Below are positions 10,696 through 58,289 of a stretch of DNA of 64,000 nucleotides, in pieces. The stretch covers positions 1 through 64,000 of the forward strand of contig JAUXGN010000006.1 of the NCBI GenBank assembly GCA_030622115.1. Direction: 5' to 3'. Position 1 is the stretch's first letter; each line of letters begins with the position of its first letter. Both the position numbers and the translations under genes were made by a program. Origin of the DNA: Candidatus Eiseniibacteriota bacterium. Its GTDB lineage: Bacteria > Joyebacterota > Joyebacteria > Joyebacterales > Joyebacteraceae. The notes under the pieces are model-generated. The model was not told where the DNA came from. It saw nothing but the letters and a program-made list of their open reading frames with translations, and ran no database searches.

Positions 10696-11190
10696 ATGAA
10701 GACCCATCACATAGTAATCATGATCTTGGCCACCGTGAGCACCATCTACCTAGGTGCGGGGGTTGCCGCCAAGAGCCTCGGCGTCTCGGGCAAGATAGGC
10801 AAGCTCGTGAGCGAGGAACGGACGGGGATGGAGGTCGAGGGGGAGAACCTGTCGGAGCTTCTGGAGGATCTCAGGAGAGCCCAGGTAGATGTTGAGGTGA
10901 CGGAGGAGACGGTCACGGCACGCGATCCGATGGTTCCGAAGGAGAAACAGAAGAGCGCGCCGAGGTCCGGATCATCAGCTCCGTCCAAGCCGAGTCGTCC
11001 ATCAGTTGTGGTGACGGCTCTAGTGATCGACAGCAATCCGATGGCAATCGTCGAAGCCGGAGGCCGCAGCATCAGCGTGAGAGTAGGAGACACCGTGAAC
11101 GGCGGCAAGGTGACGGAGATCGCGAGGGGCGGCGTGGTCATTGACTACGATGGGACCACCCGCACGTACTCGTACCCAGCGGGCAAGTGA
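10696..11190 (+). CDS. pilP: PilP-like pilus assembly protein
   Basis: A 164-aa exported protein with an N-terminal hydrophobic segment (IVIMILATVSTIYLGAGVAA), an unstructured middle rich in Pro, Ser and Lys (RDPMVPKEKQK...PSKPSRPS), and a small beta domain (VVVTALVIDSNPMAIVEAGG, then VRVGDTVNGGKVTEI). This HR/PilP fold normally bridges PilN/O to the secretin. There is no lipobox cysteine, so unlike many PilP proteins it appears to be membrane-anchored rather than a lipoprotein. Confidence 0.75.
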   Translation: MKTHHIVIMILATVSTIYLGAGVAAKSLGVSGKIGKLVSEERTGMEVEGENLSELLEDLRRAQVDVEVTEETVTARDPMVPKEKQKSAPRSGSSAPSKPSRPSVVVTALVIDSNPMAIVEAGGRSISVRVGDTVNGGKVTEIARGGVVIDYDGTTRTYSYPAGK

Positions 11191-11209
11191 AACAGGGGGA
11201 ACGCAGAAG

Positions 11210-12430
11210 ATGAGGTTTCACGCGATAATCATCACAGGGCTCCTGCTGGTCTTCACGCTTGCGCCGGCGGCGTCAGCGCAACATGAAGGAGCCACGGTGT
11301 CGGTGAGTGCAAGGGAGACCGCACTCACGGATGTCCTCACCATTCTTGCCGAGAAAAGCGGCCTCAATATCGTGACGAGCCCTGCTGTTGAGGGGAAGGT
11401 CGTCTCGGTACACATCAGGAACACTCCGATCGACGAGGCGCTTGATCTCGTTGTCAGGGCCGCCGGTCTCGCCTACGAGAGAGTGGGCAATTCGATTCTC
11501 GTTGGAAATGCCGAGGCTCTCGCGGAGGAGACGGGTCTGGACACGTATGTGCTCGACATCATGTTCGCAGACGCACACGAACTCGAGCCGCTCATTGCAG
11601 AGATAGCGGAGAGCGCGTCGACCGATCCCGGTGGGAACCGTCTGGTCGTAGTGGCGTCACCCGGCAAGATCGAGCAGATTCGCCGCGTTGTAAGGAAGCT
11701 GGACATTCCACCGGTTCAAATCAAGCTGGTGACCGAGGTGATAGAGGTGACGACGGACGACCTGATGGAATACGGCATCGATTGGGCCAAGCTGATGAGC
11801 CAGACTGTGCTCTTTGCCGAGGGGGAGCCTGAACCGTCCGCGCCTGACGGGCTTCCAGAAATAATGCCGTGGGGTGCGCTTCCGTTCGACGGCGACGATA
11901 TCGTGCGGCAGGCCCAGACTCTGGAAATGGCCATCGACTTCCTGGAGGGAGAAGGGCAAGCGCGAATCCTGAGCCGGTCGCAGCTCGCAACGCTGAATAA
12001 CCGTGAGGCTGAGATCCACATCGGCGACGTCATTCCTTACACGGTCTCGGGCGTGTCATCGGCTGGGGCGGTCGAAGTGACGGTCGAGCGAGAGAAGGTG
12101 GGTGTCACGGTTACCGTTACCCCGAGAGCGACGGGCGACGGTCACATAACAGTTCTCGTGGAACCGAACGTCAGCAGCATCGTGGGTTGGAAGGGCCCGA
12201 ACGAGGAGATCCCGTGGACCAAGGAGCGCCGTGCATCTACGCAGGTTCGCGTGAGAGACGGGCAGACGTTCATCATTGCGGGGCTTCTGAATGAGGACAC
12301 GAGCACCGAGGAAATCAAGGTGCCGTTCCTGGGCGACATTCCGATCATTGGCTATCTCTTCAAGCACATGAGAGACTCGAAGAAGACATCGGACCTGATC
12401 ATCAAGATCACGCCGACGATCATCTCGTAG
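11210..12430 (+). CDS. pilQ: Type IV pilus secretin PilQ (compact form)
   Basis: Outer-membrane secretin through which the pilus leaves the cell. It has a signal peptide (AIIITGLLLVFTLAPAASA), an STN domain (TALTDVLTILAEKSGLNIVTSP), one NolW/secretin_N domain (NRLVVVASPGKIEQIRRVV), and the secretin core ending in the conserved VPFLGDIPIIGYLFK and DLIIKITPTII segments. At 406 aa it is much shorter than proteobacterial PilQ (about 700) and lacks AMIN domains. ATG 11210 was chosen for the signal peptide and the AGGGGGA upstream; the frame is open further 5' inside pilP. Confidence 0.9.
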   Translation: MRFHAIIITGLLLVFTLAPAASAQHEGATVSVSARETALTDVLTILAEKSGLNIVTSPAVEGKVVSVHIRNTPIDEALDLVVRAAGLAYERVGNSILVGNAEALAEETGLDTYVLDIMFADAHELEPLIAEIAESASTDPGGNRLVVVASPGKIEQIRRVVRKLDIPPVQIKLVTEVIEVTTDDLMEYGIDWAKLMSQTVLFAEGEPEPSAPDGLPEIMPWGALPFDGDDIVRQAQTLEMAIDFLEGEGQARILSRSQLATLNNREAEIHIGDVIPYTVSGVSSAGAVEVTVEREKVGVTVTVTPRATGDGHITVLVEPNVSSIVGWKGPNEEIPWTKERRASTQVRVRDGQTFIIAGLLNEDTSTEEIKVPFLGDIPIIGYLFKHMRDSKKTSDLIIKITPTIIS

Positions 12431-12662: not shown

Positions 12663-13772
12663 CTATCTGTACATTGCCTTGATCGCACCCCAGCTGATCG
12701 CTTCGACGGGTGAGTCACATCCCTCTCCGTAGCGGCCGATCAACACACCGGAGTCGTTGTTCTCCGGCAGGTGAAGTGAGGCCGCGTCGACCCAGGCGTG
12801 GCAGTATATGCTTTCGCAGTAGAGCGGGTCCGCATTGATGTTGTAGTCCGAACCCGTCTGATTGGGGATCGTTCCGCTGTACAAGGGCGGCGAATTGAAG
12901 CCCCAGACATTGCAGTTCGAGAACGTGGGCGCTATAGTGCCGTCGGCGCCGTGCACCAGGCTGTACCCCGAGATGATGCCACTGCTCGTGAAACAGCAGT
13001 TCAGGAACGTCGGGGCGGCGGAGTTCTCAAGGTAGACGCACTGGCCGTCATTCCATGTTTGGCACTCCATGAACGTGACATTGGTGAGCGTCGGAGCGGC
13101 GCCGTTCGTGCAGAAGATGCCATCGCCGAGGCCTGTCGCACTACCGGCACACACACTGGTCTCGGTGACTGTGGGGGATGAGGCACTGCAGAATACGGAG
13201 GCGCCGTTGTAGCCCGCCGCGCCGTGCATCAAGGTGCACGCGACGATATCGGGGTCCGACCCATTGCAGCAGGCCAGGTTGCCACCATTGTCGAAGGCCA
13301 GGTTCTCGTCAAGAAGGCAGTTCGTGAGTGTTGGAGATGAAGACGCGAGGTAGATGCCCGCGCCGTGGTCCGCCATGCAGCCGTAGACGCGCACGTTCTC
13401 GATCACGGGAGACGAGTTACTCATCGAGATCCCGCCGCCGTCGACTCCGAATCCGGAGGACAAAGTGAAGCCACTGAGATGGGTTGTGTCGCCGCAGTCC
13501 ACAATGTAGAGGATGCAGTCGAACTCCGAGATGGCGTCGATGACGACGGACGATGTGTCTCCGCCGACACTCGTGAGAGTGACGCCGGGCTTCATCTGGA
13601 TTCCGGCCTCAGGGTAGCGCCCGTTTGCCATGAGGACCGTGTCTCTCGGCGAGGCAGACGTGATTGCTGCCTGAATGGATTCGCCGGGACTGACGTTGAT
13701 GATCGTCGCGCCGCACGTCACCGCGAGAGCGAGAACCGATACCACTGTGAGCATGATTGTAGCCAACCTCAT
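12663..13772 (-). CDS. Secreted right-handed beta-helix protein with SWGAIKAMYR C-terminus
   Basis: A 369-aa exported protein. The signal peptide MRLATIMLTVVSVLALAVTC is followed by TIINVSPGESIQAAI, the usual lead-in to a parallel beta-helix. Repeated rungs of ~22-25 residues fill the middle (SSPVIENVRVYGC, SSPTLTNCLLDE, SSPTVTETSVC, AAPTLTNVTFMEC, AAPTFLNCCF). Cysteines recur at rung corners. The protein ends PVEAISWGAIKAMYR, nearly identical to the end of the FG-GAP protein at 57336-58289. The start ATG 13772 has GGGAGAGG just upstream; an earlier in-frame ATG lacks this and precedes no signal peptide. It has its own promoter. Function unknown; probably surface-exposed or secreted. Confidence 0.85.
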   Translation of the reverse strand: MRLATIMLTVVSVLALAVTCGATIINVSPGESIQAAITSASPRDTVLMANGRYPEAGIQMKPGVTLTSVGGDTSSVVIDAISEFDCILYIVDCGDTTHLSGFTLSSGFGVDGGGISMSNSSPVIENVRVYGCMADHGAGIYLASSSPTLTNCLLDENLAFDNGGNLACCNGSDPDIVACTLMHGAAGYNGASVFCSASSPTVTETSVCAGSATGLGDGIFCTNGAAPTLTNVTFMECQTWNDGQCVYLENSAAPTFLNCCFTSSGIISGYSLVHGADGTIAPTFSNCNVWGFNSPPLYSGTIPNQTGSDYNINADPLYCESIYCHAWVDAASLHLPENNDSGVLIGRYGEGCDSPVEAISWGAIKAMYR

Positions 13773-14979: not shown

Positions 14980-16425
14980 GTGAAGGATCTCTTGAAGCAG
15001 GCCATGGATGACCTCAGGCAGAGGGGCGTCGACTACGCTGACGCGAGGCGGGTTCGGGGACTGAGTGAGATTCTCGTGATGAAGAACGGGACGCTCGAAA
15101 CGGCTTCGACGATAGAATCGGAAGGCTTCGGAATCCGCATCCTCAAGGGAGGAGCATGGGGGTTCGCATCGAGCTCCGAGCTGACCCGAGAGAAGGTCTC
15201 GGAGATCGCGGAGCAGGCTTTGGGGATCGCGGAGGCCAGCGGGACGGTCGGTAACCCTGGAATCACACTGGACAAGAGACCCCCGGCGGTCGACACGTAC
15301 ACGAGTGAGTACCGCGAAGACCCATTCGAGGTCCCGCTTGCCGAGAAGCTCGAGATGCTGACAGCGGCATGTGAGGGAATGAGGCGGACCGAGGGCGTCA
15401 AGCTGGTCACGGCATCGACAATGAACTTCAGGACCGAGAAGCTGTTTGTGGACACCGAGGGAAGTGCCATAGACCAGACGATTACCGAAGCGGGCGGTGG
15501 GATCTCCGCCACGGCCGTTGATGATGCCGGCAAGAGGCAGACGCGCTCCTACCCGGCGAGCTTCCGTGGGGACTACGCCACGCGCGGGTTCGAGTTCACG
15601 CGTTCGCTTCGCCTCGTCGAGAATGCCGAGCGTATTGGAGCGGAGGCCCTGGAACTCCTGAATGCGGATGAGTGTCCGGCCGTGAATACTACTCTCATCA
15701 TAGGCGGCACTCAGCTTGCTCTCCAAGTGCACGAGTCGTGCGGCCACCCGATTGAGCTGGACCGAGTGTTCGGCACGGAGGCCTCATACGCTGGGACCAG
15801 CTTCCTGACAACGGACAAACTGGGCTCGTTCAGGTACGGCTCGAAGGTGGTGAACCTGGTCGCGGATGCGACATGCGAAGGTGGGCTGGGATCGTTCGCG
15901 TATGACGATGAGGGAGTCGCGGCACAGCGGACGGACATCGTGCGAGACGGCATCTTCGTCGGCTATCTGACGAGCCGCGAGACCGCTCCCCGTATCGGAC
16001 TCAGCAGCAACGGCACGATGAGGGCGAGCGGTTGGAACAGGATCCCGCTCGTGAGGATGACGAACATCAATCTCATGCCGGGTGAAGGCTCTCTGGAGGA
16101 TCTTATCGCAGACACTGAGGACGGCATCTTCATAGACTCGAACAAGAGCTGGAGTATCGATCAGAGGCGAGTGAATTTCCAGTTTGGTTGTGAGATCGCC
16201 TGGGAGATCAAGCGCGGCAAGCGGGTGCGCATGCTGAAGAACCCCGTCTACACGGGTATCACGCCTGAGTTCTGGGGAGGATGTGACGCCGTGGCTGGTC
16301 CTGAGGAATGGCATGTCTGGGGTATCCCCAGTTGCGGCAAGGGTGAGCCGGGGCAGACCGCGCACGTCGGACATGGCGTGTCGCCGGCGCGTTTCCGGAA
16401 CGTAGAAGTGGGAGGCAAGCGATGA
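14980..16425 (+). CDS. tldD: TldD-family metalloprotease subunit
   Basis: Catalytic half of the TldD/TldE heterodimer, a zinc protease that trims unfolded or modified peptides. It is 481 aa. The HExxxH motif is visible as VHESCGHPIELDR (about residues 250-256), and the conserved C-terminal CGKGEPGQTAHVGHGVSPARF is present. The start is GTG 14980 after GGAGAGGGG. Its last codon overlaps the ATG of tldE (ATGA), as expected for two subunits made in equal amounts. Confidence 0.92.
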   Translation: MKDLLKQAMDDLRQRGVDYADARRVRGLSEILVMKNGTLETASTIESEGFGIRILKGGAWGFASSSELTREKVSEIAEQALGIAEASGTVGNPGITLDKRPPAVDTYTSEYREDPFEVPLAEKLEMLTAACEGMRRTEGVKLVTASTMNFRTEKLFVDTEGSAIDQTITEAGGGISATAVDDAGKRQTRSYPASFRGDYATRGFEFTRSLRLVENAERIGAEALELLNADECPAVNTTLIIGGTQLALQVHESCGHPIELDRVFGTEASYAGTSFLTTDKLGSFRYGSKVVNLVADATCEGGLGSFAYDDEGVAAQRTDIVRDGIFVGYLTSRETAPRIGLSSNGTMRASGWNRIPLVRMTNINLMPGEGSLEDLIADTEDGIFIDSNKSWSIDQRRVNFQFGCEIAWEIKRGKRVRMLKNPVYTGITPEFWGGCDAVAGPEEWHVWGIPSCGKGEPGQTAHVGHGVSPARFRNVEVGGKR

Positions 16426-17774
16426 TCGACACGAAACGACTGGACGTACTCCTGAAAGAGACGCTCGCGAATTCTCCCGGAGACGAGACGGAGCTGGTTG
16501 CACGCTGCGGCACGAACAGGCTGACGCGATTCGCCGAGTCCGTGATACATCAGAACGTAAGCGAAGAGGACTGCACCGTGACGGTGCGCGTGGCCGTGGG
16601 TAAGCGCACTGGTGTTGCGAGTACGAATCGGCTGGAGGCGGGGGTGCTCGCGGAGGCCGTGAAGCAGGCGACAGAGGTCGCTCAGGCCAGTCCTGAGGAT
16701 CCTGGCTTTCCCGGCTTCCAGAAGTCTGAGAGAGCGCCCGAGGCAGACACCTACTCCGAAGCCACAGCCTTGATGCCACCGTCCGCGAGGGCCGAGGCCA
16801 TAGGGAGGGCCGTAGCGATCGCTGCGGAGAAGGGCGCCACGCTGTCGGGCGCCTACCGGGTCAGTGATTTCCGCTTCGCGGTGATGAACACATCGGGGAC
16901 GGAACAGGAGTACTACGGAACTGATGCGTTTCTCTCGACGTATGCTACGGATGATGACGGTGTGGCCGGCGCCGCGGTAGCCTACGCGAAAGGGATCGAC
17001 GGAATCGACGTCGAGGCGACGACCAGGCGGGCTGTCGACAAGTGCGTGGCTGGAGCCGACCCGGTTGCTATCGACTACGAGCCCTTAGATGTCATCATCG
17101 AACCCAAGGCCGTGGCAGAGCTTATGAGCTGGCTCAATTTCACGGCGTTCGGCGCGAAGCAGGTTCAGGAAGGCTTCTCCTTCATGACCGGACGCTTCGG
17201 TGAGAAGGTAATGGGTGACAACATCACGATCCGTGACGATGGTTTTGACACAGCCGGTGTCCCGGTGCCTTTCGACTACGAGGGAGTTCCGAAGAAGCCG
17301 GTGACGATCATTGAGCAGGGTGTTGCCCGGTCACCCGTGTATGACACTCTCACCGCGGCCAGGGACGGCGCTGAATCGACGGGACACGCAGGGACGGCAG
17401 CTTTCCGGGGTGGTCCCGGACCAAGCAATCTCTTTATCGAACCGGGTGACAAGACGAACGATGAACTCATCTCCATGGTCGATCGTGGACTTCTCGTCAC
17501 GAGCTTCCATTATGTCAATGGGCTCCTTGATACGAGAAAGGCACTCTTCACCGGCATGACGCGTGCCGGCACGTTTCTCATAGAGGGTGGGAAGATAGTG
17601 CGAGCAGTGAAGAACCTCCGATGGACTGACAGCATGATGCGGGTCTTCTCGAACGTCGACGCGATGACGCGCGAGCGGGAGGTGATCGGTGCATCGTGGG
17701 GCGCCGTTGGCTCCGTGACAAGTCCGACGATGCTCATACGGGGTTTCAAGTTCACGGGCGCCACGGAGTTCTAG
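16422..17774 (+). CDS. tldE: TldE/PmbA-family protein
   Basis: Partner of TldD in the heterodimeric peptidase, 450 aa. The family pattern is present (RFAESVIHQNVSEEDCTVTV, then LPEPK-like region DVIIEPKAVAELMSWLNF and FTGMTRAGTFLIEGGKI), but the HExxxH metal site of TldD is absent, as normal for TldE. ATG 16422 overlaps the tldD stop. Confidence 0.9.
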   Translation: MIDTKRLDVLLKETLANSPGDETELVARCGTNRLTRFAESVIHQNVSEEDCTVTVRVAVGKRTGVASTNRLEAGVLAEAVKQATEVAQASPEDPGFPGFQKSERAPEADTYSEATALMPPSARAEAIGRAVAIAAEKGATLSGAYRVSDFRFAVMNTSGTEQEYYGTDAFLSTYATDDDGVAGAAVAYAKGIDGIDVEATTRRAVDKCVAGADPVAIDYEPLDVIIEPKAVAELMSWLNFTAFGAKQVQEGFSFMTGRFGEKVMGDNITIRDDGFDTAGVPVPFDYEGVPKKPVTIIEQGVARSPVYDTLTAARDGAESTGHAGTAAFRGGPGPSNLFIEPGDKTNDELISMVDRGLLVTSFHYVNGLLDTRKALFTGMTRAGTFLIEGGKIVRAVKNLRWTDSMMRVFSNVDAMTREREVIGASWGAVGSVTSPTMLIRGFKFTGATEF

Positions 17775-51517: not shown

Positions 51518-51611
51518 ATGGTGAGTGCATCATGATCATATGCTTGGAGAAGCCGCTGTGGGCTCGATGTGGCTGAGCGAGTCGCGATGCTTGGCCGGGA
51601 GGAGGACTCCT

Positions 51612-54600
51612 ATGGTGCAAGACTGCTATCGTATGAGATGGGGAAGCCTTGCCGTGCTGGCCGCGGCGCTTCTTCTGGCGCCGGCAATGGCGGCAACCGG
51701 CTCGCCGCCTGAGGGATGGTATTCCCTGCTTCCAGGAGAGGATGAGCCGTTGGCTCCATCAGTTGTACTGGTCACAGAAGAAGCTGCGACGACAGTTGTG
51801 ATGATCGATATCCTAGGCATGTCGCTCGAGACCGTGAATGAGGAGGGAACAGACTACTCGCGTATCAGCATTCCTCGCTATGGGTGTTTGTCTGACTCAG
51901 GTCTCCCGGAACTTCCAGTGGTCCCGATCGTGGTGGCCATCCCGGAAAGCGATTCGATCATTGTAACACTTACCGTGCTCGACTCGGTCGAGATCACGGG
52001 CGTGATACCCTTGCCGGCTCCCGGCTACGAGATCGCCTACCTGGAAGGCGGTATTCCCTACCTGCGCAGTGTCTTCGTGGTGGATGAGAGCTTCTACGGT
52101 CGAGCCGAGGGCGGTCCATACTATCCTGGCTCCCCGGTGTACGGAGCGGGTCAGGGGCATCTGAGAGCGCAGGCGTTCAGTCGCGTGGAGATCAGGCCGT
52201 TCCAGTATGAGCCGGCATCACAGGTGCTCAAGGTTCTTACACGCATGCGGGTGACAATCGAGCACGCGCAATCGCGAGGACCTCGGGTCTGTGACGTGGG
52301 CCCGCTCACGGGAGTGGCCGCAGCCGCGCTGCTCGGGTACGACCGGGAGCCGATCCCTGGAGCGCGTGGAGGAGGGGGAAGGTCTGGAAACGTCACTTGG
52401 TGCGATGACGACAACGGGTGCATCGACGCGGCGGCAGACTACCTCATCATCTACGACGATGACGAAGCGATCTGCCCCACGTCAGCGGACACACTGACTC
52501 ACGACGGGAAGAAATGGCTCGGGCGTCTGGCCAACAAGCGTGCGATCTATGATGGTTTCAGTGTGGCCCTGCTTCCGGTCAGCGGGCTGCCAGCCCCCGG
52601 GGATCCGCTCGATGATCGCATCAAGGGGCTGATCACAGATCTCTACGAGAGCCAGACGGCTGCGAACATGGGGGATGGCCGGTTGGGGTTCGTACTGCTC
52701 GTTGGAGACGCGTACGACGACGACCAGAGCGCCGGCATTCCCATGCACAACATCCCGCACTTCTTTGGGCATGCTCACGGCGATCATGTTTCTACGGACC
52801 ACTGGTATGCGTGTGTTGTGGACACCGACGGTGTGGCTGATCTCACCATTGGGCGTCTGGCCCCTGGCGATGCAGATGAACTAGTGACCGACACCAGGAA
52901 GACGGTCCAGTACGAGCCGGTTGATCCGAGCGAATCCTGGCGCTCACGAGCGTATCTCTCGTGTGGGTTCGACTCGGACCAGATCGGCGAGCACTCCGGA
53001 GCTCTCACCGAGATAGACAGTCTGGCGGTCATCCTAGAACGTCACAACTACGTGGCAAGCGAGCAGTACTGCCATCTGTTCCCAATGCCGGAGTCGGCGC
53101 AGAGGAATGCAATGCGGCAGGCAAACGTCGACTCCTTCAATCTCGGACGCTTCCTCGTCGTCTTCCACGACCACGGTTGGGAAGTCGGTCATTGGACGTT
53201 TATGACGCAGGATACAGATAGCCTTCTGAACTACAACATGCCCTCCCTCGTTCTCTCTCAAGCGTGCGAGTCAGGGGCGGTTGACAACACGCTTGAGGAT
53301 GACGACTTCGACAATACCGACAGCTTGGCTGAGCGGCTGATGCACATCGACGGGACAGGTCAAACGGGTGCGATCGCTTTTCTGGGCGCAACCGAGAGCG
53401 CATACAACAAAAGCCTCGCCACATACGTAGTCCGGATGCTGCTCGATAGCAATCGCCCGATGCTAGGTCCGGCGGTAGATGCGGCGAAGGCGGCGCTCTT
53501 CGGGATACTCAGTTGGCGCAAGTACGGGCTCGTGGCGCATGAATTCACCCTCGTGGGTGATCCAGCCCTCGACCTGCTGCTGAGCCTCGATGATGGCTAC
53601 ACGGGCCTGCCTGATCTCGTGGTTCGCACGGATCACGTTGATGTACCACGGTCCGGCAGCTACCAGGATCCCATCGAGCTTCGTTGCGAAGTGACAAACG
53701 AGAGCGCGGTCGATATCCCGACCGGAGCACTGGTGGAGCTGGAGTTCTCGGTATTCGACGCAGAAGGGCAGCTGCACGCGGTGCTTCGCGATACGGTCGA
53801 CGGGTTGGGCAGCTGGTCGTCTTGGACGGCAACGGTCACGTGGGATGTGGGGAGCGAAGATGTTGGGAACTACGACGTTGCCGTCATGGTCGATCCCGAC
53901 ACCACGATCTCGGAGTTTCGGGAAGCCAACAACGCATCCACGCTTATGTCACCGCTGTCGGTGTCGTTCGAGAGGGATGGTTTCCCGAGGGCTCTGCCTG
54001 ACTTCCACCACGCTGCCGCTTTGCTGGTCGCCGAACTCGATCAGGAGAGCGAAGGAGATGAGATCCTGCTCTACCACCATACAGGCGGTTCGCACACGGT
54101 GGAGGCGCGCGACAGTGATGGGATCGCACTCTGGGATTTCCAGCATCCCGGGACAGGAACTGCGATCACACCGGCGGTCGCTGACATGGATGGTGATGGG
54201 ACGCAGGAAGTGGTCGTGCTGCTGCTTGGTAGTGCTGACACGATGACCGATACGTGCTTCGTTCTCGACGGTAGGGAATTCCCAGATCCCGAAGAAGGAC
54301 GCGTTCTCGCAACGGTCGGCGTCGGGACGGGATGTGGGAGTCCGATGCTCGGTGACATCGACCCCCTGGATGGACATCCCGAGATCCTGATCGCCGCAGA
54401 TAACGGCGAAGGCACGTGCCTCTCTGTTTGGGATGTGAGCAGCGATCCACCAGATCGCCGTTGGTGCTACCCTCTGGGCGATTTCCCAGAGAATGCGATG
54501 AGGCGCACCGCAACACTCGCGAACTTCACAGCAGCGGCTGGTGACGTTGTGATGTGGACTGCAAGCATGAACCCGGCACAAGTTATCTGCGTTGGTGCTG

Positions 54601-56696
54601 ACGGCGAAGAGAACTGGACCAGCGACATAACAGGCGGCTACTTCGATGATCCGGGCTATGGCTCCGCCGCTGCAGATCTCAATGGGGACGGGACGCTGGA
54701 CATCGCCTCGGTTACGCTTTCAGTGGCACGCCTTGTGGTCCACAGTGCTTCTGATGATGGGGACTTGCTCGGTCAATCCACTCCAGGTGAGATCGGAGCC
54801 GGCAGCAATGTGGCGATTGGCGATCTGGATGGCGATGGTGAGCTGGATGTCGTGGTTGCGGGACACAATCGCATCGATGTCTTCAACTACTCGTCTGGCG
54901 TCTTCTCGGCGCCGGAGTGGTCGAAGACATTGCCCGCATACATTGTGGAGGGGACGCAGCCCCTTATCGGCGACATCGACGGAGGATCAGACTCAGAGAT
55001 CGTGGTCGCCACGTCGGATGGAGGTGATCACCGTCTATGGATTCTCAAGGCTACAGCTGGTGCTGACACGCTTGAACTTATGACGGAGCCCATCTGGCTG
55101 CCCGGCAAGTATGCAACCGGAGCAATCTGCGATCTGAACGCAGACGGATACGCCGAGATCGTGTTCACAACGGACGACGGCACGCTTCACGATCTCGAGT
55201 ACTGGGATGAGAGCAGCGGTAGGTTCGACTGGCCCATGCACAGGCATGACCCGCAACGGACGGGAGTCCACAGCCATCCCATGGGTGGGCCGCTTGCAGA
55301 GAGTGCGACGTGGGTGGGTGAGATCAATGTGCACGGTGATGTGATAGTCGGGTCTGATGAGTCGCTCCGACTCCAACCGGGAACGGAGGTCCACTTCGCG
55401 CCGAGGTATGATTCAGAAGGGGGAGGAGCCGACCTCGGCCTGAGCGAGATCATTGTGGATGGGTACATTGAGGCGGTTGGTGGGGAGGGTAGCGCCGGGA
55501 TCACGCTCCTGTCGGATGGCAGCGCGGGATCGTGGTACGGACTGAGGTTGCGTTCGGGTAGCGCGTGTTCACTGAACCAGGTGACCTTCCTCGATGCCTA
55601 CAAATCCGTATGGGCGGTTGATGCGGACCCGGTCCGGCTTGAGCGATGCTTCTTCCTGGACCAGCAGATGTTCGGCGTGCAGCTTCTTGACTGTGAGGGA
55701 GAAGCGGTCATCCGGGATTGCGGTATCGTGGACTGCGACATCGGGATCCAGTGCGAGGGAACGCAAGCAGAGCTCCTTTCGAACTCGATCAGCGAGGCCC
55801 ACGGCTACGGTATCAAGCTCATCGCCGATGGGGGATCGATCGCGACAGGCAACTCCGTGGCGGTCCGGTACGAGCCCGGTGTCGGCCTCACCCAACCCGC
55901 GGGAGTGCACGTTGCTTCCGTTACAGCCACAGCGCCTGACCAGCTAGTCTTGGACGGCAACACGATTTCGATCGTTGATGACTGCGCTATCGGGATGTGG
56001 CTGTGCCAGACCACTAGCCAGCCCGTTATCGTAACCAGCAACATGCTGACTGCCTCCATCCAGGCCAGCAACACGGTCGGGATCAAGATCGCAAGGGCGT
56101 CGGTCGTGGCCCGTGAGAACGAACTCGATGGGTATAGGACGGCGTTCGATGTCGTCATGAAGTTCCCTCGCTTGGTTGATCTTGGGAATAACACTGGCTC
56201 GGACGGCCTCAACTGCACAGACGACCGGTGTGTCTACAATGTCCACGCAGTGGGTTGGGTGCAGCCGTCGCATGTCTACGCTCAGAACAACTGGTGGGGT
56301 ACGGCCGCGCCTTCTCCTACGAGGTTCTATGCTCACAACACCAACGTGCACTGGGAGCCGCACCTGACTGAGGACCCCCGGGAGGGTCGCGGAGGCGACC
56401 GAGAGTTGGAAGGGGTTCGCGAGGTCTACTTGAATCAGAACTCGCCCAATCCCTTCAATCCGACAACGACGATCGCGTTCGGGCTTCCGGAGGCTGGGCC
56501 CGTTACGCTTCGAGTCTACGATCTGGCAGGCAGACTGGTGCGAACTCTGCTGGCTGAGACCGCGGACGCGGGTGACCACCAGGTCGTTTGGGACGGAGCT
56601 GATGATCTCGGGCATCCGGCCGCATCCGGCGTCTATTTCTGCCGTCTCAAGGCAGGAAAGGTTCTCCTCCGGGCGAAACTCGTCCTTCTCAAGTAG
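51612..56696 (+). CDS. Gingipain-like C25 peptidase with FG-GAP, beta-helix and C-terminal sorting domain
   Basis: A 1694-aa exported multidomain protein. Signal peptide (GSLAVLAAALLLAPAMAA) and C25-type propeptide, then a caspase-fold peptidase with His521 in FHDHGWEVGHW and Cys552 in LVLSQACESGAVDN. A CARDB-like domain follows (about 660-780), then FG-GAP calcium-type repeats (about 850-1200: DMDGDGTQEV, DLNGDGTLDI, DLDGDGELDV), a right-handed beta-helix (about 1275-1590) and a C-terminal domain from about 1607 starting NQNSPNPFNPTTTIAFGLP and containing VYDLAGRLVRTL, the FlgD-like/type IX sorting type. ATG 51612 follows GGGAGGAGG by six bases. Likely surface-attached; substrates unknown. 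Confidence 0.9.
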   Translation: MVQDCYRMRWGSLAVLAAALLLAPAMAATGSPPEGWYSLLPGEDEPLAPSVVLVTEEAATTVVMIDILGMSLETVNEEGTDYSRISIPRYGCLSDSGLPELPVVPIVVAIPESDSIIVTLTVLDSVEITGVIPLPAPGYEIAYLEGGIPYLRSVFVVDESFYGRAEGGPYYPGSPVYGAGQGHLRAQAFSRVEIRPFQYEPASQVLKVLTRMRVTIEHAQSRGPRVCDVGPLTGVAAAALLGYDREPIPGARGGGGRSGNVTWCDDDNGCIDAAADYLIIYDDDEAICPTSADTLTHDGKKWLGRLANKRAIYDGFSVALLPVSGLPAPGDPLDDRIKGLITDLYESQTAANMGDGRLGFVLLVGDAYDDDQSAGIPMHNIPHFFGHAHGDHVSTDHWYACVVDTDGVADLTIGRLAPGDADELVTDTRKTVQYEPVDPSESWRSRAYLSCGFDSDQIGEHSGALTEIDSLAVILERHNYVASEQYCHLFPMPESAQRNAMRQANVDSFNLGRFLVVFHDHGWEVGHWTFMTQDTDSLLNYNMPSLVLSQACESGAVDNTLEDDDFDNTDSLAERLMHIDGTGQTGAIAFLGATESAYNKSLATYVVRMLLDSNRPMLGPAVDAAKAALFGILSWRKYGLVAHEFTLVGDPALDLLLSLDDGYTGLPDLVVRTDHVDVPRSGSYQDPIELRCEVTNESAVDIPTGALVELEFSVFDAEGQLHAVLRDTVDGLGSWSSWTATVTWDVGSEDVGNYDVAVMVDPDTTISEFREANNASTLMSPLSVSFERDGFPRALPDFHHAAALLVAELDQESEGDEILLYHHTGGSHTVEARDSDGIALWDFQHPGTGTAITPAVADMDGDGTQEVVVLLLGSADTMTDTCFVLDGREFPDPEEGRVLATVGVGTGCGSPMLGDIDPLDGHPEILIAADNGEGTCLSVWDVSSDPPDRRWCYPLGDFPENAMRRTATLANFTAAAGDVVMWTASMNPAQVICVGADGEENWTSDITGGYFDDPGYGSAAADLNGDGTLDIASVTLSVARLVVHSASDDGDLLGQSTPGEIGAGSNVAIGDLDGDGELDVVVAGHNRIDVFNYSSGVFSAPEWSKTLPAYIVEGTQPLIGDIDGGSDSEIVVATSDGGDHRLWILKATAGADTLELMTEPIWLPGKYATGAICDLNADGYAEIVFTTDDGTLHDLEYWDESSGRFDWPMHRHDPQRTGVHSHPMGGPLAESATWVGEINVHGDVIVGSDESLRLQPGTEVHFAPRYDSEGGGADLGLSEIIVDGYIEAVGGEGSAGITLLSDGSAGSWYGLRLRSGSACSLNQVTFLDAYKSVWAVDADPVRLERCFFLDQQMFGVQLLDCEGEAVIRDCGIVDCDIGIQCEGTQAELLSNSISEAHGYGIKLIADGGSIATGNSVAVRYEPGVGLTQPAGVHVASVTATAPDQLVLDGNTISIVDDCAIGMWLCQTTSQPVIVTSNMLTASIQASNTVGIKIARASVVARENELDGYRTAFDVVMKFPRLVDLGNNTGSDGLNCTDDRCVYNVHAVGWVQPSHVYAQNNWWGTAAPSPTRFYAHNTNVHWEPHLTEDPREGRGGDRELEGVREVYLNQNSPNPFNPTTTIAFGLPEAGPVTLRVYDLAGRLVRTLLAETADAGDHQVVWDGADDLGHPAASGVYFCRLKAGKVLLRAKLVLLK

Positions 56697-57335: not shown

Positions 57336-58289
57336 ATGTCATTCCAAATGAGAGTCTTATGCGTGGTTGTGCTTGCGATCTTCGCCGCTGGGGCTGGTTC
57401 CGCCCAGGGTGTGTCGATCGGTTGGACCCTCATGCCTGAGTGGGCCCCGCCCATCGACGGCTCTTGGCCGGGCGGAGCCGATCTGGATGGTGATGGTGAC
57501 ATCGATCTCTTGGTGAGCCAGTCCTACAGTGGCCTGAGAAACGACGGTGGGTGTCTCGTGGGCCCATGGAGCAGCAACCCCGGCTGGTGCGATGGTCTCC
57601 CTGGATCCGGTGAGTGTACTGGTCCCGAGCTCGAACTTGCGGATCTCGATGGAGATGGGGATGCTGACCTTCTTGTCGGCTGTTTCTATGGGAGCATCCT
57701 GTTCTTCGAGAACACCGGTACAGAGGTGGAGCCGGAGTGGACCCGGAACGATGACTACTTCCATACCACCTTCTCGAATTTTCGAGCACCGGCGGCGGCC
57801 GATCTTGACGGGGACGGGGATCTCGACATCGTATCCGGAGTCTCCGCCGGAGCATCGCACCTCATCGTGTACTGGAATGAAGGAACGCCCGACAACCCCG
57901 TCTGGGTTGAGGACCGCGACTTCTTCTCATCGCTCACGCCGGTGGGGACCTCGGTCGAGCCGAACTTTGCGGACATCGACCAGGATGGTGATCTGGATCT
58001 GGTCGCGTTTCCCATTGGCCATGACAATGCGCCGCCCAACGTGTACGAGAACATCGGCAGCGCAATGAGCCCGATGTGGATGGAGAACCCGGGGCTCTTG
58101 TCAGGAGTCGATCCTGTGCACTCGTACTACGGTGCGGTTCTGCACGACCTGGACTGTGATGGCCGTCCGGATCTTCTGATGTTCGTGATCGACGAGGGTG
58201 CGTACGACGTACGGTGCTATCGGAACGATGGTCCTATGACCCCGGTCCAGCCGACGAGCTGGGGTGTGATTAAGGCGATGTACCGCTAG
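57336..58289 (+). CDS. Secreted FG-GAP/VCBS repeat protein with SWGVIKAMYR C-terminus
   Basis: A 317-aa exported protein: signal peptide (VLCVVVLAIFAAGAGSA), then repeated FG-GAP/VCBS units with Asp-rich calcium-binding-like loops (DLDGDGDIDLLVS, DLDGDGDADLLVG, DLDGDGDLDIVSG, DIDQDGDLDLVAF, DLDCDGRPDLLMF). Such repeats form beta-propellers. It ends PVQPTSWGVIKAMYR, matching the beta-helix protein at 12663-13772. ATG 57336 follows GGGAGG. It is probably co-transcribed with the two genes before it, and the terminator at 58357 closes the unit. Confidence 0.87.
   Translation: MSFQMRVLCVVVLAIFAAGAGSAQGVSIGWTLMPEWAPPIDGSWPGGADLDGDGDIDLLVSQSYSGLRNDGGCLVGPWSSNPGWCDGLPGSGECTGPELELADLDGDGDADLLVGCFYGSILFFENTGTEVEPEWTRNDDYFHTTFSNFRAPAAADLDGDGDLDIVSGVSAGASHLIVYWNEGTPDNPVWVEDRDFFSSLTPVGTSVEPNFADIDQDGDLDLVAFPIGHDNAPPNVYENIGSAMSPMWMENPGLLSGVDPVHSYYGAVLHDLDCDGRPDLLMFVIDEGAYDVRCYRNDGPMTPVQPTSWGVIKAMYR

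Follow-up and report, generated by a model that had tools for sequence, protein, structure and literature searches.

C-terminal tags have repeatedly led to whole sorting systems, as in the cases of LPXTG/sortase, PEP-CTERM/exosortase and the type IX secretion system (T9SS). The T9SS C-terminal domain (CTD) is a seven-stranded beta-sandwich of 70-100 residues (PMC10994853), and in Bacteroidota the type A and type B CTDs use different shuttles (PMC10994853, PMC12618676); PorD, a T9SS component located in the periplasm, binds PorW (PMC8754138). The tag described here resembles the type A/B CTDs (TIGR04183/PF18962, FlgD_ig-like PF13860, TIGR04131) as a predicted C-terminal signal on Sec-exported, surface-type proteins, occurs in the same genomes and is interchangeable with the CTD on homologous proteins, but it comprises only about 15 residues predicted to be disordered, has no sequence similarity to the CTD and is never found with it on one protein. 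Models of the CTD (TIGR04183/PF18962/FlgD_ig, TIGR04131) were not among the matches of 52 tagged representatives. Like the PEP-CTERM/exosortase, GlyGly-CTERM/rhombosortase and MYXO-CTERM tags, it is a short sequence that recurs on unrelated secreted proteins, dozens of them in a genome, and on the same choice-of-anchor families; it differs from all three in having neither a transmembrane stretch (0/231 tails) nor a tripartite structure, and from PEP-CTERM in that the cognate exosortase is not present in every tagged genome. With LPXTG/sortase it shares a C-terminal position on Sec substrates, but the tag has no LPXTG or hydrophobic stretch, and the lineages are Gram-negative and showed no sortase. 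PorD and the PorV/PorQ-family shuttles, whose genes flank a single-copy tagged orthologue in two lineages, are machinery and not tag carriers, and their part in reading the tag is one that we infer. No model of the tail itself was found in NCBIfam (to E=1) or Pfam (to E=0.01), CTERM and T9SS-tail models included; full-text literature searches, which covered few subscription journals, gave nothing relevant on the motif or on how these phyla secrete or sort proteins, and no mention of T9SS or sorting was found in the description of Effluviviacota genomes (PMC11323493).

The window (the whole stretch of 64,000 nucleotides that was analysed) encodes two tagged proteins (Table 1). Translation of the open reading frame at 57336-58289 (+) gives a protein ending in PVQPTSWGVIKAMYR and that of 12663-13772 (-) a protein ending in PVEAISWGAIKAMYR, both up to the stop. 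The two tails are identical at 11 of 15 positions, with synonymous codons differing between the genes, and in a BLASTP comparison of the FG-GAP and beta-helix proteins the tail was the sole similarity of meaningful score (12/20 identical, E=4e-5). A DNA pattern for the motif core, lacking the stop, matched the window exactly twice, at the two tails, whereas 100 shuffles gave 0.00 matches; both matches (2/2) are terminal even when the stop is left out of the pattern. Each protein begins with a signal-peptide-like N-terminus, which is hydrophobic in the FG-GAP protein (57336..58286, with an alternative start at 57354). The initial annotation, which had proposed from this pair a shared tail on secreted but otherwise unrelated proteins, is borne out: the tail identity and both translations were reproduced, the N-termini agree with its signal peptides, Pfam assigns the remainders to FG-GAP repeats and right-handed beta-helix, respectively, and the free synonymous variation, with 4/4 glycine and 6/6 arginine codons in use, supports its view that protein sequence is maintained and not recently copied as DNA. 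A short way upstream of the tagged FG-GAP gene lies that of a C25 protease, which has a FlgD_ig T9SS-type end in place of the tag.

Table 1. Positions of the tagged proteins, their tails and the adjacent CTD-bearing protease in the window.
Feature	Position	Strand	Basis
C-terminal tag PVQPTSWGVIKAMYR + stop, FG-GAP protein	58242..58289	+	translation, pattern scan
Secreted FG-GAP repeat (beta-propeller) protein with tag	57336..58286	+	Pfam FG-GAP_3 1.5e-23
C-terminal tag PVEAISWGAIKAMYR + stop, beta-helix protein	12663..12710	-	translation, pattern scan
Secreted right-handed beta-helix protein with tag	12663..13772	-	Pfam Beta_helix 1.6e-11
C25 (gingipain-like) protease with FG-GAP and beta-helix segments	51525..56696	+	Pfam Peptidase_C25 7e-35
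FlgD_ig (T9SS type A-like) C-terminal domain of C25 protease	56457..56654	+	Pfam FlgD_ig 6.9e-11

The anatomy of the tag was drawn from 237 tails. Its consensus, (T/S)PVExx[ST]WGxIK[A][LM][YF]R, spans about 15 residues at the extreme C-terminus; W-9, G-8 and K-5 are invariant, I-6 and R-1 are present in 97%, Y/F-2 in 99% and S/T-10 in 96%, position -3 is mostly L or M, and P, V and E at -15 to -13 each occur in about 60%. Glycine is encoded by all four and arginine by all six of its codons, and this full variation indicates that selection acts on the protein. A few copies (7/10 of the listed exceptions) have one or two extra residues past the R, so the R need not bear a free carboxylate. Counts of terminal versus internal copies from the fetched loci are biased, most loci having been picked by a pattern that includes the stop. 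The tail is hydrophilic with a mean net charge of about +1.3, and none of 231 tails exceeded a hydropathy of 1.6 (maximum over 17 residues within the last 25 residues; average 0.05). Its hydrophobic moment exceeds that of shuffles for helix and strand alike and thus does not settle the bound form. In AlphaFold2 models of the window FG-GAP protein (pTM 0.78) and a distant tagged orthologue, the tail lies outside a well-formed fold with pLDDT below or near 50; in the window protein the last 16 residues fall below 50 and are predicted to be disordered. Despite this predicted disorder, no part of the FG-GAP family is better conserved than the tail, whose last 16 residues are nearly invariant among seven homologues that are only 34-38% identical to the window protein overall.

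Genome-wide occurrence was assessed with a 30-base DNA pattern for WGxIKxx[YF]R plus stop, with the reversed pattern as control. The genome that contains the window (G000) has 36 exact matches to [ST]WGxIKxx[YF]R-stop and none to the reversed control. All 20 genomes examined of its phylum (Candidatus Effluviviacota) carry the tag in 12-58 copies each, and among 146 relatives about a dozen further lineages have it as well (18 copies in G117), with reversed controls at zero. Among the matches listed for the GTDB genome collection, the tag occurs in Eisenbacteria, Krumholzibacteriota, Aegiribacteria, Latescibacterota, Poribacteria and Gemmatimonadota (labels as deposited). In several uncultured phyla a genome has tens of tagged proteins, and the tag provides a ready list of secreted or surface proteins.

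The carriers have little in common apart from the tag and a secretory start. When signal peptide and tail were removed from 140 tagged proteins with signal peptides, the remainders fell into 52 clusters without detectable mutual homology, although some carriers are paralogues, for example eight FG-GAP proteins. By a crude hydrophobicity rule applied identically to tagged and other ORFs, 96 of 105 complete tagged ORFs (about 91%) have a signal-peptide-like start versus 240 of 792 neighbouring ORFs (30%); a lipobox-like site is present in only 5/140 tagged proteins, and a lipoprotein reading was rejected. Pfam domains of the carriers include FG-GAP, beta-helix, NHL, laminin-G-like, PKD, LTD, cleaved adhesin and pectate lyase, and NCBIfam matches include choice-of-anchor J and V, ScyF PEP-CTERM, MXAN_6652 MYXO-CTERM and ExeM GlyGly-type families. 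Judged by these matches, the families are ones with known anchor swapping, which would fit a sorting role. It is nearly certain that a dedicated C-terminal tag exists as such, being modular, carried by secreted proteins and placed outside their fold.

Tag and CTD exclude each other. With an HMM built from local sequences for CTD detection, the fetched loci contained 145 tagged ORFs, 67 CTD-ended ORFs and none with both. They are also exchangeable on homologues: 41 tagged ORF records (some of them one gene in two loci) have CTD-ended homologues, including the window's beta-helix protein, one homologue of which ends in a T9SS CTD (E=2e-9), and in three loci (L232 of genome G117, L163 and L104) neighbouring paralogues that are 35-42% identical carry the tag on one and the CTD on the other.

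In six lineages (G020, G026, G064, G070, G092 and G099) the sole tagged protein, or nearly so in G070, is one and the same orthologue, a secreted FN3-like protein of about 130 residues that ends in TWGSIKA[ML]FR and whose tail is invariant while the remainder is 30-39% identical. This orthologue may be an ancestral carrier of the tag. In G020 and G070 its gene lies directly downstream of porD with a PorV/PorQ-family gene close by; both porD calls (NCBIfam T9SS_PorD, E=1e-25 and 1e-14) are under the curated cut-off of the model, and in the other four of the six lineages (G026, G064, G092, G099) the gene is not adjacent to porD. A fold search with the orthologue returned generic FN3-like matches only. 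The small secreted FN3-like family that directly follows porD in two lineages (L226:8540-8938, L227:6336-6767) is undescribed and a candidate T9SS-associated component.

Occurrence of the tag is also associated with the T9SS translocon gene SprA (TIGR04189), which is above cut-off on contig C74 of the window's genome, where there are in addition 109 FlgD_ig and 16 PorV/PorQ-family matches. Outside the home phylum SprA is above cut-off in 12 of 13 tagged versus 17 of 113 untagged genomes (Fisher p=3e-8 with related genomes treated as independent; p=2e-7 if G104, whose pattern match is a 14-residue reading frame scored as chance, is scored as tagged). Across the 29 named tagged genomes SprA is convincing in 27, 26 being above cut-off and one, G146, matching clearly over a long stretch; in the tagged MAGs G150 and G156, which are possibly incomplete bins, the match is a short ambiguous stretch that also matches other proteins. 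Tagged G121 has a SprA match of only E=1.4e-4. SprA genomes with and without the tag cannot be told apart by their number of PorV/PorQ-family genes, and a search for a conserved untagged neighbour gene across tagged loci found no dedicated partner.

We consider the tag to be an alternative C-terminal signal that has no folded domain and directs proteins to T9SS-linked export or attachment at the surface, with a probability of roughly 0.55. A tagged protein would be exported through Sec with its signal peptide, its tail would be read by an outer-membrane PorV/PorQ-like shuttle together with SprA, and this reading would lead to export or to attachment at the cell surface, so that about 15 residues would do the job that a folded CTD does on other cargo of the same cell. 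We infer the T9SS parts as readers, the surface as the fate and the identity of the receptor shuttle. Since type A and type B CTDs use different shuttles, it is plausible that a third class of signal has a shuttle of its own. If the T9SS reads the tag, the accepted view that cargo of this system requires a folded domain at its C-terminus would have to be extended, and a peptide of 10-15 residues could serve as a simple export tag. Counting against the T9SS as reader, the tag is unlike any part of the CTD, and the association between SprA and the tag is confounded by common ancestry in the FCB superphylum. Ancestry as a possible cause of the co-occurrence, taken together with the 17 SprA-positive genomes that lack the tag, is the strongest counter-argument; given these genomes, a further reader must exist if the T9SS reading is right.

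The main rival is a separate envelope system (receptor, transpeptidase or adaptor) that reads the tag and is merely confined to the same phyla as the T9SS, a possibility that we take seriously but think somewhat doubtful. The general evidence for a tag (36 matches versus 0, 20/20 genomes, 52 clusters) fits such a reader equally well, the 17 tagless SprA genomes favor it, and the T9SS association could be phylogenetic; what it does not readily explain is the mutual exclusion of tag and CTD with their exchange on paralogues, or the tagged orthologue beside porD in two lineages. Nor do the two enzyme classes examined as such readers fit. Sortase (PF04203) is missing from all 23 tagged genomes examined, while control genomes were positive, and is rejected; exosortase, present in 10/11 Effluviviacota genomes examined, does not track the tag, being missing from the heavily tagged G006 (28 tags) and G117 (18 tags) as well as from G044, G122 and others. 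A membrane-anchored CTERM type is likewise rejected because the tails have no hydrophobic stretch. Short, disordered, cationic C-terminal peptides with aromatics are readable by periplasmic chaperones and tail-specific proteases, and the tail, which has all of these properties, might on such general grounds be a periplasmic retention, chaperone-binding or proteolysis (degron) signal and not one for surface sorting. This is improbable, as the carriers belong to surface-type families (choice-of-anchor, FG-GAP, beta-helix, lectin-like, NHL), the tag alternates with a T9SS export domain on paralogues, and the one or two residues past the R in several copies are ill-suited to strict reading of a terminal carboxylate. 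That some carriers are paralogous, such as the eight FG-GAP proteins, could suggest that the tail belongs to one shared folded domain or spread by recent DNA duplication, yet this explanation is ruled out for practical purposes by the 52 otherwise dissimilar clusters, the position of the tail outside the fold models and the free synonymous variation of its codons.

Several further statements of the initial annotation can be compared with these results. The predicted role of the tail as a short C-terminal sorting signal gains support from the 52 unrelated secreted clusters, the choice-of-anchor families and the co-occurrence with SprA, which is a secretion gene of the kind it had advised looking for. 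Shared signal peptides without shared domains, for which it proposed a test, are seen in 96/105 tagged ORFs and 52 unrelated clusters. It had named two observations that would speak against its proposal: a motif lying within one folded domain family, for which the 52 clusters and a tail pLDDT below 50 show the opposite, and absence from other C-termini in related genomes, where 36 copies in G000 and 20/20 genomes of the phylum were found. The tail differs from PEP-CTERM tags in having no transmembrane stretch (0/231 above hydropathy 1.6) and from the FlgD-like T9SS domain of the C25 protease in resembling no part of a CTD, as had been stated, and NCBIfam, Pfam and the literature searched agree with its remark that no signal of this form was known.

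Some minor observations concern the gene content of these genomes. PorV/PorQ-family matches number 16 in the 2.6 Mb genome G000 and reach 39 in G064, many more than expected for a classical T9SS. An exosortase (PF09721, E=4e-68) is encoded at G000:C48:24029-24787 and found also in most Effluviviacota. Among 2.9 million viral contigs the motif was matched three times. Two tagged ORFs of G000 are split from an upstream half bearing the signal peptide, one by an in-frame TAG (L020, on C55 near locus 1003) and one by an in-frame TGA (L030, on C75 near locus 1351); these may be pseudogenes, assembly errors or cases of readthrough. Within the window, the tagged beta-helix gene is flanked on one side by a type IV pilus/T2SS-type secretin (11141-12430) and has a TldD/PmbA metallopeptidase pair nearby on the other (14980-17774). 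Finally, tagged paralogues frequently occur in tandem pairs or triplets (L061, L021/L022, L010 and L026).
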